38,037 nucleotides of DNA, taken from Alphaproteobacteria bacterium (GTDB lineage Bacteria > Pseudomonadota > Alphaproteobacteria > JAJFIK01). Shown piece by piece: positions 1 through 17,531 of the stretch. A program made the position numbers and the translations under genes. The stretch lies in NCBI GenBank assembly GCA_028280665.1, contig JANQLJ010000103.1, forward strand, positions 1 through 38,037, written 5' to 3'. How positions within the stretch are numbered: position 1 is the stretch's first letter; every line of letters begins with the position of its first letter. Below the pieces are notes generated by a model that worked only from the letters and a program-made list of their open reading frames with translations, had not been told where the DNA came from and searched no databases.

Positions 1-629
1 AGCGGCACCGCGTCTTCACGGCCCACCAGCGCGCGGCCGTGACCGGCGGAAAGGCGGCCATCGGCGAGCATCACCTGCACGCCTTCCGGTAACGTCAGCA
101 GGCGGAGGGTGTTGGCAATGTGGCTCCGCGATTTGCCGATAAACTTGGCAAGCGCATCCTGGGTGTAACTGAACTCATCCATCAGGCGCTTATAGCCGCG
201 CGCTTCTTCAATTGAATTTAAATCCGTGCGCTGAACATTTTCGACAATTGCGATTTCAAGCGCTTGCGCGTCGTCGAAATCACGCACGCGCACCGGCACC
301 TCGTGCAGTTGCACCGCTTGCGCCGCGCGCCAGCGGCGTTCGCCGGCAATGATCTGATAACGCCCCTCGCCGCCTGGTTTGGCGCGCACGATGATGGGCT
401 GAATGATGCCGCGCTCTTTCACGCTCGCCGTAAGGTCTTTCAAATCTTCTTCGGAAAATGTGCGCCGCGGCTGAAAGGGATTGGGCTCCAAAAACTCAAC
501 TGGCACTTCTACTTGGTCCGTAGGCGGATGAATTGCCCCCTCGCGCGCCTCACCCTCCACCTGCGCTGCTGCGTCTTCCTCGCCCATAAGCGCCGAAAGC
601 CCGCGGCCCAGTCCTCTTTTGTCGGCCAT
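1..629 (-). CDS. parB: Chromosome partitioning protein ParB (3' end beyond window)
   Basis: This is the centromere-binding CTP switch of the ParABS chromosome segregation system; it loads at parS and spreads along DNA. Reading the minus strand from ATG at 629 gives an N-terminus with the GLGRGLSAL motif used to contact ParA, then a ParB/Srx-type domain with the GERRWRAA signature near residue 90, ENVQRTDLN near 130, and the start of a helix-turn-helix (KSRSHIANTLRLL). The gene runs off the left edge after about 209 codons, so the C-terminal dimerisation domain is not seen. An in-frame ATG at 635 also exists, but the AGGA on the minus strand is about 7 nt from the 629 start and only 1 nt from the other. 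It follows parA by 12 nt, so both are probably one transcript. Two parS sites lie nearby at 2113 and 4093. Confidence 0.96.
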   Translation of the reverse strand, partial: MADKRGLGRGLSALMGEEDAAAQVEGEAREGAIHPPTDQVEVPVEFLEPNPFQPRRTFSEEDLKDLTASVKERGIIQPIIVRAKPGGEGRYQIIAGERRWRAAQAVQLHEVPVRVRDFDDAQALEIAIVENVQRTDLNSIEEARGYKRLMDEFSYTQDALAKFIGKSRSHIANTLRLLTLPEGVQVMLADGRLSAGHGRALVGREDAVP

Positions 630-641
630 TTTCATGTCCTC

Positions 642-1478
642 TTAAGCAGCGCGCAGTTCGCGCTCGCGCTGAATGAGTTCGCTCGCAAGCCGCATATACG
701 CCTTGCTGCCCGCGCAGCGGTGGTCATAGACAAGCGCCGGCTTGCCGTGGCTTGGCGCTTCGCTGACGCGCACGTTGCGCGGGATCACGGTCTTGTAGAC
801 TTTCTCGCCCATGAACTCGCGCACGTCTTTCGCCACCTGATCCGACAAATTATTCCGCCGGTCGAACATGGTGAGCACCACGCCCTGGATTTCGAGATCC
901 GGGTTGAGCGAGGTTTTGACGAGATCGATGGTGCGCAAAAGCTGCGACAGCCCTTCGAGGGCGAAAAACTCGCACTGCAGCGGCACCAGCACCGCGTTCG
1001 CCGCGGTCATGGCGTTCACGGTGATCAGATTGAGCGAGGGCGGGCAATCGATCAGCACATAATCAAAGGCCACCGCGCCCGGGGCCATGGCTTGAAAATA
1101 TCCGGTGAGCGCATCGCGCAGGCGGAATGAGCGCCGCGGCACATTGATCAGCTCAAGCTCAGCGCCCGCCAGGTCCACCGTCGAGGGCACAATATGAAGA
1201 TTGGGGATGGTGGTCTCAAGGATGGCACTTGCCAGCGGCGCTTCGTCGATCATCACGTCATAAGTGGCGACCTGCCGCGCCGCGCGCGGAATACCAAGGC
1301 CCGTGGAGGCGTTGCCTTGGGGGTCGAGATCGATGATCAGCACCTTGGCCCCCACCGCGGCAAGGCCGGTGCCGAGATTAATGGCGGTGGTGGTCTTGCC
1401 CACCCCGCCTTTCTGGTTGGCGACCGCCAGAATCCGGGGGTTTTGGAGCTGCGGTATGGGAGCTTGGTGAACGGTCAT
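642..1478 (-). CDS. parA: Chromosome partitioning ATPase ParA
   Basis: ParA is the DNA-binding ATPase whose gradient moves ParB-parS complexes, and so the chromosome origin, across the cell. The 278-residue protein has a deviant Walker A motif KGGVGKTT at residues 23-30, a Walker A' stretch (LIIDLDPQGNAS) near 48-59 and a Walker B region (YVLIDCPPSLN) near 140. This is the chromosomal (short, no N-terminal HTH) ParA type, also called Soj. It is followed 12 nt later by parB and preceded by rsmG, the standard alphaproteobacterial order. The family assignment is secure. Confidence 0.97.
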   Translation of the reverse strand: MTVHQAPIPQLQNPRILAVANQKGGVGKTTTAINLGTGLAAVGAKVLIIDLDPQGNASTGLGIPRAARQVATYDVMIDEAPLASAILETTIPNLHIVPSTVDLAGAELELINVPRRSFRLRDALTGYFQAMAPGAVAFDYVLIDCPPSLNLITVNAMTAANAVLVPLQCEFFALEGLSQLLRTIDLVKTSLNPDLEIQGVVLTMFDRRNNLSDQVAKDVREFMGEKVYKTVIPRNVRVSEAPSHGKPALVYDHRCAGSKAYMRLASELIQRERELRAA

Positions 1479-1518: not shown

Positions 1519-2178
1519 TTATCGCGGGCTTTCCGCAGGGGTGAGACGGGAAAGCCTAAGGATTTTTCCGCTTTCTCCGGTGCGGCTGGGGATCACGTCC
1601 GCTTCGAATGTTCCCCAGGCGCACGCTGCCGTCAATTCGGTACCTGCGCTTTTTCCCTTCAAGAATAAGGCGATTCCCTCCGGTTTGAGAAACGGTATGG
1701 CCAAGGGTAGCAGTTTTTTGAGCGGCGCGAGCCCCCGGGCGGTTACCACGTCCGAGGGCCAGGGCGCGAGCGCCTCGATGCGGCTATTGTGAACTTCCGC
1801 GGGCGCCCCGGTGGCGCGGATCGCCTCGCGCAGAAAGGCGCATTTGCGCCCATCGCTTTCGATCAAATGGACCTTGAAAGCCCCAGTTTCCCTCGCCAAA
1901 ACCGCCAGCACCAGGCCCGGGAACCCGGCACCAGCCCCGAGGTCGGTGATGACGCGCGCACTCTCGTGAGGTCTTTGGGGCAGCAAGGGCCAGAGCTGCG
2001 CGGAATCGACCACATGGCGGCTCCAGGCGTCTTTCAGGGAGGCGCTGCTAACCAGATTGATGCGCGCTTGCCATTTGGTGAGTAGAGCGAGGTAGTCCGC
2101 GAGTGCCGTCAGTGTTTCACGTGAAACACCGGCAATCTCCTCAAGCGCCGCCTCGGCCTCAGGCGGAACGGCGGACAT
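1519..2178 (-). CDS. rsmG: 16S rRNA (guanine527-N7)-methyltransferase RsmG
   Basis: RsmG (GidB) uses S-adenosylmethionine to methylate N7 of G527 in 16S rRNA. The 219-residue product carries the SAM-binding motif [14 protein letters not shown] near residues 78-91 and the family's [15 protein letters not shown] and [14 protein letters not shown] stretches. ATG at 2178 overlaps the end of mnmG by 20 bp, so translation of the two is probably coupled. A perfect parS site is embedded in the codons for VSRET (2113-2128), so this coding sequence doubles as part of the centromere. Length and order with mnmG are normal for the family. Confidence 0.96.
2113..2128. promoter_or_regulatory. parS centromere site 1 (inside rsmG)
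   Basis: The sequence TGTTTCACGTGAAACA is a perfect 16-bp palindrome and an exact match to the near-universal bacterial parS consensus bound by ParB. It lies in the 5' part of the rsmG coding sequence, about 1.5 kb from parB and about 14 kb from the proposed origin. Confidence 0.95.
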
Positions 2179-4092: not shown

Positions 4093-4108
4093 TGTTTCAC
4101 GTGAAACA
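4093..4108. promoter_or_regulatory. parS centromere site 2 (mnmE-mnmG intergenic)
   Basis: A second exact TGTTTCACGTGAAACA palindrome lies between the mnmE stop (4116) and the mnmG start. It is 1,980 bp from the first copy. Two identical 16-bp sites so close together and next to parAB leave little doubt that this is the chromosomal centromere region. Confidence 0.95.
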
Positions 4109-14158: not shown

Positions 14159-15244
14159 TTAAGCTGTTGAAGCCACCGCGCAGCGGCTGAACCGGGCGGG
14201 GCAAAGTCGCGCCTCCGCGCCGCCGGGGCAAGTCTCTTGTTTACTCATTTGTCCGCTTTCCTGCCCCCACCGCGCCGCCGCCAGGGCCATAGTCGCAAGC
14301 GCCTCGATGTACCCGGGCGCGGTGCCAAGAGCTGGAACGCGGACGTAGCGAGGCACGCCTGCTTCTTCCGCAAGCTTGCGGTATTCGATATCGAGTTCGA
14401 CAAGAGTTTCGGAATGCTCCGAGACAAAGGCGATGGGCACCAGCACCACGTTCTTGCCCTCGGCGCCCGCGCGCTCAATTTCCGCATCGGTGGAAGGCCC
14501 GATCCATTCAAGAGGGCCCACGCGGCTCTGATAACAGACGGTCCAGTCAAGCGGGCCGATGCCAAGTGCTGAGGCTACGGCCTCGGCGGTTTGTTCCACC
14601 TGCCACTGATAAGGATCGCCTTTTTCGATCACGCGCTTGGGCAGTCCGTGAGCTGAAAAAAGCACCCGCGTGCCTTCCGGCCCGCCCGCGCGCTCAAGCG
14701 CTGCTTTGAGCAGCGCCGCGTGTGTCCTGATAAAGTTTTCTTCCAAAGGATGGCAGCACACTGCGGCACTCGGCGCGGCAAGGGCCACTTTGGCGGCCGC
14801 TTCGCGCCATTCCTTGAGCGAAGAGGCGGAAGTGGTTGTGGAGAACTGCGGATAAAGCGGCAGCAGCACTACTTGATCCGGCGCATTGGCGGCAACCTCT
14901 TGCGCCACCTCGCTTGCCCGCGGATGCCAATAACGCATGGCCACGAAAACGCGCACCTCCTCCCATGAACCCTCTGCCGCAAGCCGGGCTTCAAGCGCAC
15001 CCGCTTGTTCCTGGGTGAGCGGAAGAATAGGCGAGCGCCCGCCGATTTCCCCATAGATCGATTGGGCAAGCGGCGCGCGGCGCCGCGAGATCAGTTGCGC
15101 CAACGCCCAGCGGACTGGGGCAGGGGCGCCGATAATCGCTGGGTCATTGAAGAGATTGAACAAAAAGGGTTGCACTGCCTCGGGGCTGTCCGGCCCGCCG
15201 AGATTAAACAGCACCACGGCAAGGCGTTTGCCACCCGCGCTCAT
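14159..15244 (-). CDS. hemH: Ferrochelatase
   Basis: HemH inserts iron into protoporphyrin IX, the last step of protohaem synthesis. The 361-residue protein has the active-site His in LFSAHGLP (residue about 199), the acidic partner in SEHSETL (Glu276/Glu279) and the family's LPLYPQFSTTT block. Unusually, three cysteines (about 339, 348 and 355) sit in the last 25 residues, where some bacterial ferrochelatases carry ligands for a [2Fe-2S] cluster, so a cluster is possible but unproven. Its ATG overlaps the hemE stop in an ATGA, so translation is coupled; hemJ begins 11 bp after its stop. Confidence 0.96.
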   Translation of the reverse strand: MSAGGKRLAVVLFNLGGPDSPEAVQPFLFNLFNDPAIIGAPAPVRWALAQLISRRRAPLAQSIYGEIGGRSPILPLTQEQAGALEARLAAEGSWEEVRVFVAMRYWHPRASEVAQEVAANAPDQVVLLPLYPQFSTTTSASSLKEWREAAAKVALAAPSAAVCCHPLEENFIRTHAALLKAALERAGGPEGTRVLFSAHGLPKRVIEKGDPYQWQVEQTAEAVASALGIGPLDWTVCYQSRVGPLEWIGPSTDAEIERAGAEGKNVVLVPIAFVSEHSETLVELDIEYRKLAEEAGVPRYVRVPALGTAPGYIEALATMALAAARWGQESGQMSKQETCPGGAEARLCPARFSRCAVASTA

Positions 15245-16287
15245 GAGTTTTTCCAGCTTGTGACTATATCGACGAGCCTTGCCACGTTTTCAGGCGGCGT
15301 CTCGGGAACAATGCCATGGCCTAGATTGAAGATGTGAGGGCCATTCCCAAACCCCGTGAGGATACGCCTTGCTTCTCCTTCGAGGGCCGTACCCCCCGCA
15401 ACGAGGGTCAATGGGTCGAGATTGCCTTGGACCGGCAAGCGGTTCTGGAGGTTCTCCCGCGCCCAAGCGATGGGGGTGCCTGTGTCGAGACCGATGGCGG
15501 TCACACCTGTTTCCGCTGCATAGCGTACCCCCGCCGCGCCTGCGCCGCGCGGGAACCCAATAATGGGAACATCGGGGTGGCTTTCGTTGAGCCCGGCTAC
15601 AATCTTCGCCGTGGGCGCAATCACCCAACAGTCGAACTCGTGATCTGGAAGCTGCGCCGCCCAGCTATCGAAAAGCTGGATGACTTCCGCACCTGCATCA
15701 ATTTGTTGCTGTAGGTAAAGCACCGTCGCCTCGGTCACGAGATCGATGAGTTTGGCGAAGCCGTCCGGGTCCCGGTACGCCCACACCCGCGCCGCGCGCT
15801 GATCCGGGCTACCGCGCCCGCCCACCATATAGGTAGCAACTGTCCAGGGACTTCCCGCGAACCCGATGAGGGCCACGTCGTTGGGCAATGTCGCCGATAG
15901 TTTTGCGACAGTCTCAAACACCGGCGCGAGATGGGCTTCGACATTCGCAAGACTCAACGCTGTGAGCCCCGCCTCGTCGGTAATGGCGCCAAGCACCGGG
16001 CCTTCGCCTTCCTTGAAGGCAACGCCCTGGCCAAGGGCATCGGGAACCAGAAGAATATCCGCGAATAGGATTGCGGCATCAAAGGCAAAGCGCCGTAAGG
16101 GCTGGTGTGTGACTTCCGCAGCCAGATTCGGCGAATAACAAAGGTCGAGAAAACCCTTCGCCTTGGCCCGCGTCTCCCGGTATTCAGGGAGGTACCGTCC
16201 TGCCTGGCGCATGAGCCAGATTGGAGGCCGGTCGAGAACCTCGCCTCTAAGTGCTCTTAAGAGCCGTTTGTCGCTGACCTGTGCCAA
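15241..16287 (-). CDS. hemE: Uroporphyrinogen decarboxylase
   Basis: HemE decarboxylates the four acetate side chains of uroporphyrinogen III to give coproporphyrinogen III in haem synthesis. The 348-residue protein has the N-terminal signature PPIWLMRQAGRYLPEYRETR (residues 21-40) with the substrate-binding arginines, FADILLVPDALG near 79-90 and GFAGSPWTVATYMVGG near 139-154. The start is TTG at 16287 with GGAG about ten bases upstream on the minus strand. It is the first gene left of the proposed origin, the same neighbourhood seen for hemE in Caulobacter and Rickettsia, and overlaps hemH by 4 bp. Confidence 0.97.
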   Translation of the reverse strand: MAQVSDKRLLRALRGEVLDRPPIWLMRQAGRYLPEYRETRAKAKGFLDLCYSPNLAAEVTHQPLRRFAFDAAILFADILLVPDALGQGVAFKEGEGPVLGAITDEAGLTALSLANVEAHLAPVFETVAKLSATLPNDVALIGFAGSPWTVATYMVGGRGSPDQRAARVWAYRDPDGFAKLIDLVTEATVLYLQQQIDAGAEVIQLFDSWAAQLPDHEFDCWVIAPTAKIVAGLNESHPDVPIIGFPRGAGAAGVRYAAETGVTAIGLDTGTPIAWARENLQNRLPVQGNLDPLTLVAGGTALEGEARRILTGFGNGPHIFNLGHGIVPETPPENVARLVDIVTSWKNS

Positions 16288-16504
16288 GGATACTCAGCTC
16301 CTCTCTCTAATCATTACTAGATTCAAGGATGTTGAAGTAGGACACGGGAAAACGGGGATCAAATGTTTTGGGGGATTTTATTGGCTATCCCAGGGAAAAA
16401 GGAAAGTTCGGTTTGAGAATTCCGGGATTGGGGAGAGAAAAAACGTGATTGGCAGATTCTTAGGCCCATATCGCTGATTAGAAGGAATATTGAGCAGGAA
16501 GTAC

Positions 16505-16513
16505 TGTGCAAAA
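16505..16513 (-). promoter_or_regulatory. DnaA box (TTTTGCACA)
   Basis: The minus strand reads TTTTGCACA, a full match to the relaxed DnaA-box consensus TTWTNCACA. It lies within the proposed origin, about 170 bp from the consensus box next to ppsR. Confidence 0.6.
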
Positions 16514-16611
16514 CCATCAGATAGTCTGGGAGAACCCTCATCTGTGCACGTGATTTCGCAGATTGAGCAGTTTGGAGGAGCCGCAAGCGAAAAAGTGAGA
16601 GTCCGGTATAA

Positions 16612-16631
16612 GCCTGACGTAAACGTCAGGC
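16612..16631. repeat. 20-bp palindrome in the origin candidate
   Basis: Arms GCCTGACGT (16612-16620) and ACGTCAGGC (16623-16631) are perfectly inverted around the 2-bp spacer AA. No T-tract follows, so a terminator is unlikely; dimeric-protein binding is more probable. It does not match parS. Confidence 0.8.
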
Positions 16632-16682
16632 GCTGGGCTCTAGGCGAGACCAGCAGGGTAGAACTGGACTTTTTGCGGCCCG

Positions 16683-16691
16683 TTATCCACA
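16683..16691 (+). promoter_or_regulatory. Consensus DnaA box (TTATCCACA)
   Basis: TTATCCACA is an exact match to the high-affinity DnaA box. It ends only 9 bp before the ppsR ATG, so DnaA binding here could also affect ppsR expression. Confidence 0.75.
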
Positions 16692-16700
16692 ACATTGTTC

Positions 16701-17531
16701 ATGACCGAGGGAACGCGAGGGCCATTTCATTTGCATCTCATCTCCGATGCCACCGGGGAAACCCTGGCTTCGGTGGCGAAGGCGGCTTGCGCGCAGTTCG
16801 AAGACGCCGACCCCATTGAGCATCTTTATGCCCTTGTCCGGACGGGCCGTCAGCTTGACCGGGCGCTCAGGGAAATCGAAGCGGCCCCCGGCCTTGTCAT
16901 GTTCACGCTGATGAACGAGGACTTGCGCGCGCGGCTCGAAGAGCGCTGCCGGAAGATGGCAATGCCGTGCGTGGCGGTGCTCGACGGAACCCTGGGCGAG
17001 CTGTCGCGCTATCTCGGCCGGGAGCAGACCCACAGAACCGCCGGGCAGCACCAGCTCGATGAGGCCTATTTTCAGCGTATCGAAGCTCTCAACTACACAA
17101 TGGCCCACGACGATGGGCAGAACCTCGAAGGGCTCGGCGAGGCGGATGTGATTCTGGTTGGCGTGAGCCGCACGTCGAAAACGCCCACCTGCATGTATCT
17201 CGCAAACCGGGGCGTTAAAGCCGCGAATGTGCCGCTTGTCCCGGATGTGCCGCTGCCGGAAGAGCTTTATCAGGCCAAAGGTCCGCTCATTATCGGCATC
17301 ACCGTCAGCGCGGACCGGCTGATCCAAGTGCGGCGCAACCGGCTTCTGTCGCTCAACGAGTCGGCGGAAACCGGTTACACCGACCCCGATGAGGTGAAGC
17401 GCGAGGTGGTCGGGGCCCGGCGGCTTTTTACCAAGGCGGGCTGGCCGGTGATTGATGTCTCGCGCCGCTCGATCGAAGAAACCGCCGCCGCCGCGTTCAA
17501 CCTCCTCCAAGATGCACGGACGGAAACATGA
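16701..17531 (+). CDS. ppsR: Pyruvate, phosphate dikinase regulatory protein (kinase/pyrophosphorylase)
   Basis: A DUF299 protein of about 276 residues. Relatives switch pyruvate phosphate dikinase or PEP synthase off by ADP-dependent phosphorylation and on by Pi-dependent dephosphorylation, yielding PPi. It shows the N-terminal FHLHLISDATGETL motif, a P-loop-like GVSRTSKTPTCMYLA near 151-165 and the PLVPDVPLPEEL block. A TTG six bases upstream is in frame, but ATG at 16701 is preferred. It is the first gene to the right of the proposed origin and its stop overlaps the maf ATG (ATGA). Which dikinase it controls here cannot be told; no target gene lies in the window. Confidence 0.93.
   Translation: MTEGTRGPFHLHLISDATGETLASVAKAACAQFEDADPIEHLYALVRTGRQLDRALREIEAAPGLVMFTLMNEDLRARLEERCRKMAMPCVAVLDGTLGELSRYLGREQTHRTAGQHQLDEAYFQRIEALNYTMAHDDGQNLEGLGEADVILVGVSRTSKTPTCMYLANRGVKAANVPLVPDVPLPEELYQAKGPLIIGITVSADRLIQVRRNRLLSLNESAETGYTDPDEVKREVVGARRLFTKAGWPVIDVSRRSIEETAAAAFNLLQDARTET

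Follow-up and report, generated by a model that had tools for sequence, protein, structure and literature searches.

A predicted chromosomal replication origin between hemE and ppsR in an uncultured alphaproteobacterium

Origins that adjoin dnaA are a common arrangement among bacteria in general. Criteria for origins of the alphaproteobacterial hemE/COG1806 kind, together with their boundary genes in Caulobacter and Rickettsia, have been set out (PMC1914354), and the sequence TCCCCA has been described as a weak W-box in Caulobacter (PMC4285127). Origins other than that of Caulobacter do not in general show CtrA sites (PMC4468827). A basal unwinding system employing DnaA-trios is known from Bacillus subtilis and has been predicted widely (PMC8287927).

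The stretch of DNA analysed here (the window, 38,037 nt) is contig C110 of a draft genome of 182 contigs and 2.35 Mb (2,353,593 bases) that is 91% complete. On sequence evidence this alphaproteobacterium very probably has its chromosomal origin (oriC), one of the hemE/ppsR type, in the gap at 16288-16700. The gap and its boundary genes are as follows.

16288..16700, no strand: predicted chromosomal replication origin (oriC), the hemE-ppsR intergenic gap; A+T-rich, with DnaA boxes, conserved divergent neighbours and a local skew turn
15241..16287, minus strand: hemE, left boundary gene (TIGR01464, NCBIfam)
16695..17531, plus strand: ppsR (COG1806/DUF299), right boundary gene (NF003742, NCBIfam)

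An in-frame ATG of ppsR is also found at 16701, so the start is either 16695 or 16701; the gap is ~407-413 nt long and falls within the 200-1000 bp intergenic range of PMC1914354. The initial annotation described it as an A+T-rich gap between hemE on the minus and ppsR on the plus strand, and this was borne out, with a GC content of 0.48 against 0.60 for its locus (the window being mostly 0.60-0.65) and both genes confirmed by NCBIfam. Leftwards the gene order from the contig end is parB, parA, rsmG, mnmG, mnmE, several others, rho, hemH and hemE, and rightwards from the gap it is ppsR, maf, aroE, coaE and dnaQ, then secB, fxsA, timA, mltA, hslU and hslV. The minus-strand genes hemE, hemH and rho reach down to 12093 and the plus-strand genes ppsR to dnaQ up to 20316, so that gene direction diverges from the gap for ~4 kb each way, in keeping with the several kb first claimed. 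The promoters of hemE and ppsR must share the gap with the predicted origin and may account for some of its A+T richness; scans of the gap for sigma-70 promoters and terminators gave no match. In the window as a whole there was no Rfam match at the gathering threshold and no tRNA was found.

Candidate DnaA sites were scored with a profile nine bases wide, built from the gaps of 23 relatives to the exclusion of the window and its congener (G001).

16683..16691, plus strand: strong DnaA box TTATCCACA, the best site of the whole window by this profile, 9 nt before the ppsR ATG
16695..16703, plus strand: weak second box TTGTTCATG, which overlaps the start of ppsR (profile score 6.7; alignment with the congener)
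16505..16513, minus strand: DnaA box TTTTGCACA, mid-gap (profile score 9.3)
16353..16361, minus strand: degenerate DnaA or W-box-like site TGATCCCCG, beside a triplet run (score 5.9)
16429..16434, minus strand: W-box-like TCCCCA, a single short match that could be chance

The two matches originally proposed, at 16683-16691 (plus) and 16505-16513 (minus), lie exactly there, and with two gap sites scoring >=9 the remark that only two boxes are clear also holds. The congener carries TTATTCACA at the place aligned with 16683..16691, TTATCCATG at that aligned with 16695..16703 and TTGTCCACA mid-gap, and a block around 16353..16361, AACGGGGAT.AAATGTT, is common to both genomes. In the window alone TTWTNCACA is unremarkable (n=3 vs 1.04 expected). 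Across the assembly there are 69 copies, of which the gap holds the sole pair <=500 nt apart, and the probability of two falling in the gap is ~7e-5. TTATCCACA occurs eight times in the 2,353,593 bases, one copy being in the gap, where 0.0014 would be expected per 413-nt gap. The profile ranked 16683 first among all sites in the 38 kb window and the gap first among 413-nt bins; boxes are denser here than elsewhere, as described for such origins in PMC1914354, and in its place beside hemE/COG1806, size, boxes, A+T content and local GC-skew shift the gap agrees with the criteria of that study.

Comparison across the class drew on 50 hemE-ppsR gaps (from L003-L028, L040-L044 and L164-L188). In a first set of 30 loci fetched around ppsR, the window included, a divergent hemE adjoins ppsR in 25, and a contig end truncates at least one of the remaining five; from a second set of 31 loci 25 hemE-ppsR gaps were recovered, of which one spans 3.8 kb. 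When no motif was supplied, the top enriched 9-mer in the first 25 gaps was TTATCCACA (11 gaps vs 0.1 expected), and TTATCCCC, for which no paper on its presence in origins was found in the literature searched, occurred in 16 of them vs 0.5 expected. The top two 9-mers in the second, held-out 25 gaps were TTATCCCCA (13/25) and TTATCCACA (11/25), and profile sites numbered 135 vs 17.7 in shuffles. Boxes in the relatives are many and spread across the whole gap. Each held-out gap has 1 to 10 sites scoring >=9; the two of the window place it at the low end but within the known range, so that the architecture is sparse, as the initial annotation had it. Across all 50 gaps TTATCCCCA, which ends in TCCCCA, roughly matches the classical DnaA box in frequency; this suggests that the W-boxes of Caulobacter may be the terminal part of a complete class of 9-mers. 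In a Micavibrionaceae genome (L044) hemE and ppsR are ~3.8 kb apart, which points to an insertion beside the presumed origin. Neither gene was found in G002, of the same genus and 97% complete; that assembly probably lacks the contig with the origin, though both genes could have been lost.

The cumulative GC skew of the window is lowest at 16027, 261 nt from the gap, a local minimum in a chromosome that is in 182 contigs, and the right-minus-left skew difference has p 0.005 by block permutation. The skew minimum of 40 kb in the congener lies 143 nt from its gap and that of 120 kb in G042 ~450 nt from its own. The nearest closed relative within the first set is G010, for which sampling covered 32% of the chromosome, hole-free from 3493 kb across the record start to 114 kb; the cumulative minimum falls in bin kb 3606, with ppsR at 3605.8-3606.6 kb. 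Two relatives run counter to this: in G013 the hemE-ppsR gap and the turn of the skew are roughly 50-120 kb apart, G055 has no turn at its gap, and no exact parS was found in either. G013 (single contig; C1 2.07-2.27 Mb) has DnaA boxes in its gap despite the distant skew turn, which may reflect a relocated origin or a rearrangement of the region.

Partition genes and sites are present at the left end of the window.

21..515, minus strand: parB (matched part, at contig end; TIGR00180, E 4.8e-60, the only match in the assembly)
642..1478, minus strand: parA (ParA/MinD-family matches), adjoining parB
2113..2128, no strand: parS TGTTTCACGTGAAACA, exact
4093..4108, no strand: parS TGTTTCACGTGAAACA, exact

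Exact GTTTCACGTGAAAC occurs only twice in the assembly, both times on this contig (2114 and 4094). parA, parB and both parS lie 12-16 kb from the gap, the parS sites themselves at 12-14 kb, which is the arrangement of a chromosomal parABS-linked origin (parS near the origin together with parAB). parS is ~6-18 kb from the gap in four relatives; in the congener it is on a different contig from the gap. The likely chromosome origin beside hemE that was initially put forward is thus supported by parABS linkage, the class-wide hemE-ppsR pair, motif enrichment and the local skew turn. That the gap is instead only the divergent hemE/ppsR promoter region, with DnaA regulating transcription there and replication starting elsewhere, would suit a gap between two divergent genes with a box (16683) just before the ppsR ATG, and G013 and G055 show no skew turn at theirs; it is nevertheless very unlikely in view of the skew, whose turning point is at the gap in the window, the congener and G042 and over the sampled chromosome of G010, of the linked parS, and of the many boxes that the relatives carry across the whole gap.

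On the hemE strand of many gaps a DnaA-like box is followed, after a spacer, by triplets (CTACTAC or CAACAACTA, for example) and then by A+T-rich DNA. The counterpart in the window is the following.

16329..16340, minus strand: DnaA-trio-like triplet run CTACTTCAACAT (3'-GAT GAA GTT GTA-5' on the opposite strand), separated by 12 nt from the weak box at 16353

A triplet run with a box 3-20 nt before it was found in 12 of the first 25 gaps vs 0.29 in shuffles, nearly confined to the hemE strand and side. The pattern was framed after eleven first-set gaps had been read, so a fair test has to come from the second set, where it occurs in 10/25 vs 0.3 in shuffles. In sequence this hemE-side box and triplet pattern looks like the DnaA-trio system of PMC8287927, for which a box within ~16 nt of 3'-NAN-5' triplets is the criterion; in the window the distance is within this limit and the first two triplets alone fit. 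Alignment places GGGGGATAACGGGGAT of the congener where the window has ACGGGAAAACGGGGAT, so that of the two box pairs the one in the window is weaker, and it is degraded relative to the congener (GGGATAACGGGGAT to GGGAAAACGGGGAT). This degradation, with a box count at the low end, would accord with an ancestral origin that has decayed in this lineage, initiation having moved to another site. Such a move is highly improbable, since the skew still turns at the gap, the strong box, mid-gap box, triplet run and both parS are kept, and the assembly has no other close pair of boxes.

Other regulators of origins were sought in the gap. No TTAA-N7-TTAA CtrA site with fewer than 2 mismatches was found there, and 1/25 first-set gaps has one; the genome encodes CtrA (NF045991) and GcrA. 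A Caulobacter-type CtrA-controlled origin is excluded by this absence, which is not evidence against an origin as such because CtrA sites are not general in other origins (PMC4468827). An IHF site is among the criteria of PMC1914354; the gap has a single match to the IHF consensus, and this is weak.

16467..16479, minus strand: possible IHF site AATCAGCGATATG, one match to WATCAN5WTR (~0.1 expected by chance from a simple base-count estimate)

A perfect inverted repeat of 20 nt, GCCTGACGT-AA-ACGTCAGGC, was seen at 16612-16631 within a larger hairpin at 16598-16641 (RNA fold of 16560-16660, z -2.7). It was rejected as a conserved origin element, being absent from the congener, and its core is nowhere else in the genome even at one mismatch. 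Possible roles are those of an operator, of a terminator-like stem or of a segment of a small RNA, such as the CcnA that Caulobacter encodes at its origin (PMC8959179).

The gene for DnaA itself is on contig C78, not on the contig of the window. An origin adjoining it, as in many other bacteria, has the commonness of that arrangement in its favour and is hardly credible here, for dnaA has no adjoining strong DnaA box, no TTWTNCACA nearby and, over 6 kb around it, three isolated profile sites >=9. A dnaA-linked origin with many boxes, which the initial annotation had named as evidence that would tell against the gap, therefore did not appear. A separate 133 aa protein with a DnaA C-terminal DNA-binding domain (PF08299) is encoded besides the full DnaA (L002 1387-1788, minus strand; G000:C27).

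For the hemE-ppsR gap as origin, a course of events can be predicted from the arrangement of its sites. DnaA would bind at 16683, the strong box, and also at 16505, the second, and would extend across weak TCCCC-type sites toward hemE. The filament would then capture the triplet run at 16329-16340 and the A+T-rich DNA would open on the hemE side, after which helicase would be loaded and two forks would leave. ParB on parS, 12-14 kb away, would then move the new origin. A more specific version is doubtful, though conceivable: that the hemE-side unwinding module has eroded (the box pair degraded and triplets partly lost relative to relatives), leaving an origin that starts replication with an unusually minimal complement of two strong DnaA boxes and no control by CtrA, and that class-wide TTATCCCCA sites are the full 9-mer counterparts of the Caulobacter 6-mer W-boxes.

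These observations place an origin in an uncultured alphaproteobacterium whose sampled relatives beyond the genus share only its class, and with the origin placed growth-rate estimates from read coverage become possible. From the comparison of 50 gaps there also emerges a testable anatomy for the class: TTATCCACA and TTATCCCCA sites and, on the side of hemE, a triplet run that is strand-specific.

The place is the same as that of the Caulobacter and Rickettsia origins, and the gap, almost certainly where replication of the chromosome begins, is therefore a well-supported but ordinary origin of a known kind, poorer than most in strong DnaA boxes. Cori of Caulobacter crescentus (hemE / CC0001 = COG1806) has the same boundary genes, is likewise ~400 nt and A+T-rich, and shares with the window gap few strong plus weak TCCCC-type DnaA sites and linked parABS. 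The two differ in the strong box, TTATCCACA in the window and TGATCCACA (the G-box) in Cori, and in that the window gap is without a TTAA-N7-TTAA site although CtrA and GcrA are encoded. The origin of Rickettsia prowazekii (hemE / RP001) has the same boundary genes and a similar gap length, but its gap is ~82% A+T in a 71% genome (PMC1914354), whereas that of the window is 52% in a 40% region. With the DnaA-trio system the window has in common a box, a 12-nt spacer and 3'-GAT-type triplets beside A+T-richer DNA, and it departs from that system in that the run adjoins a weak box and the triplets past the second are 3'-GTT/GTA.
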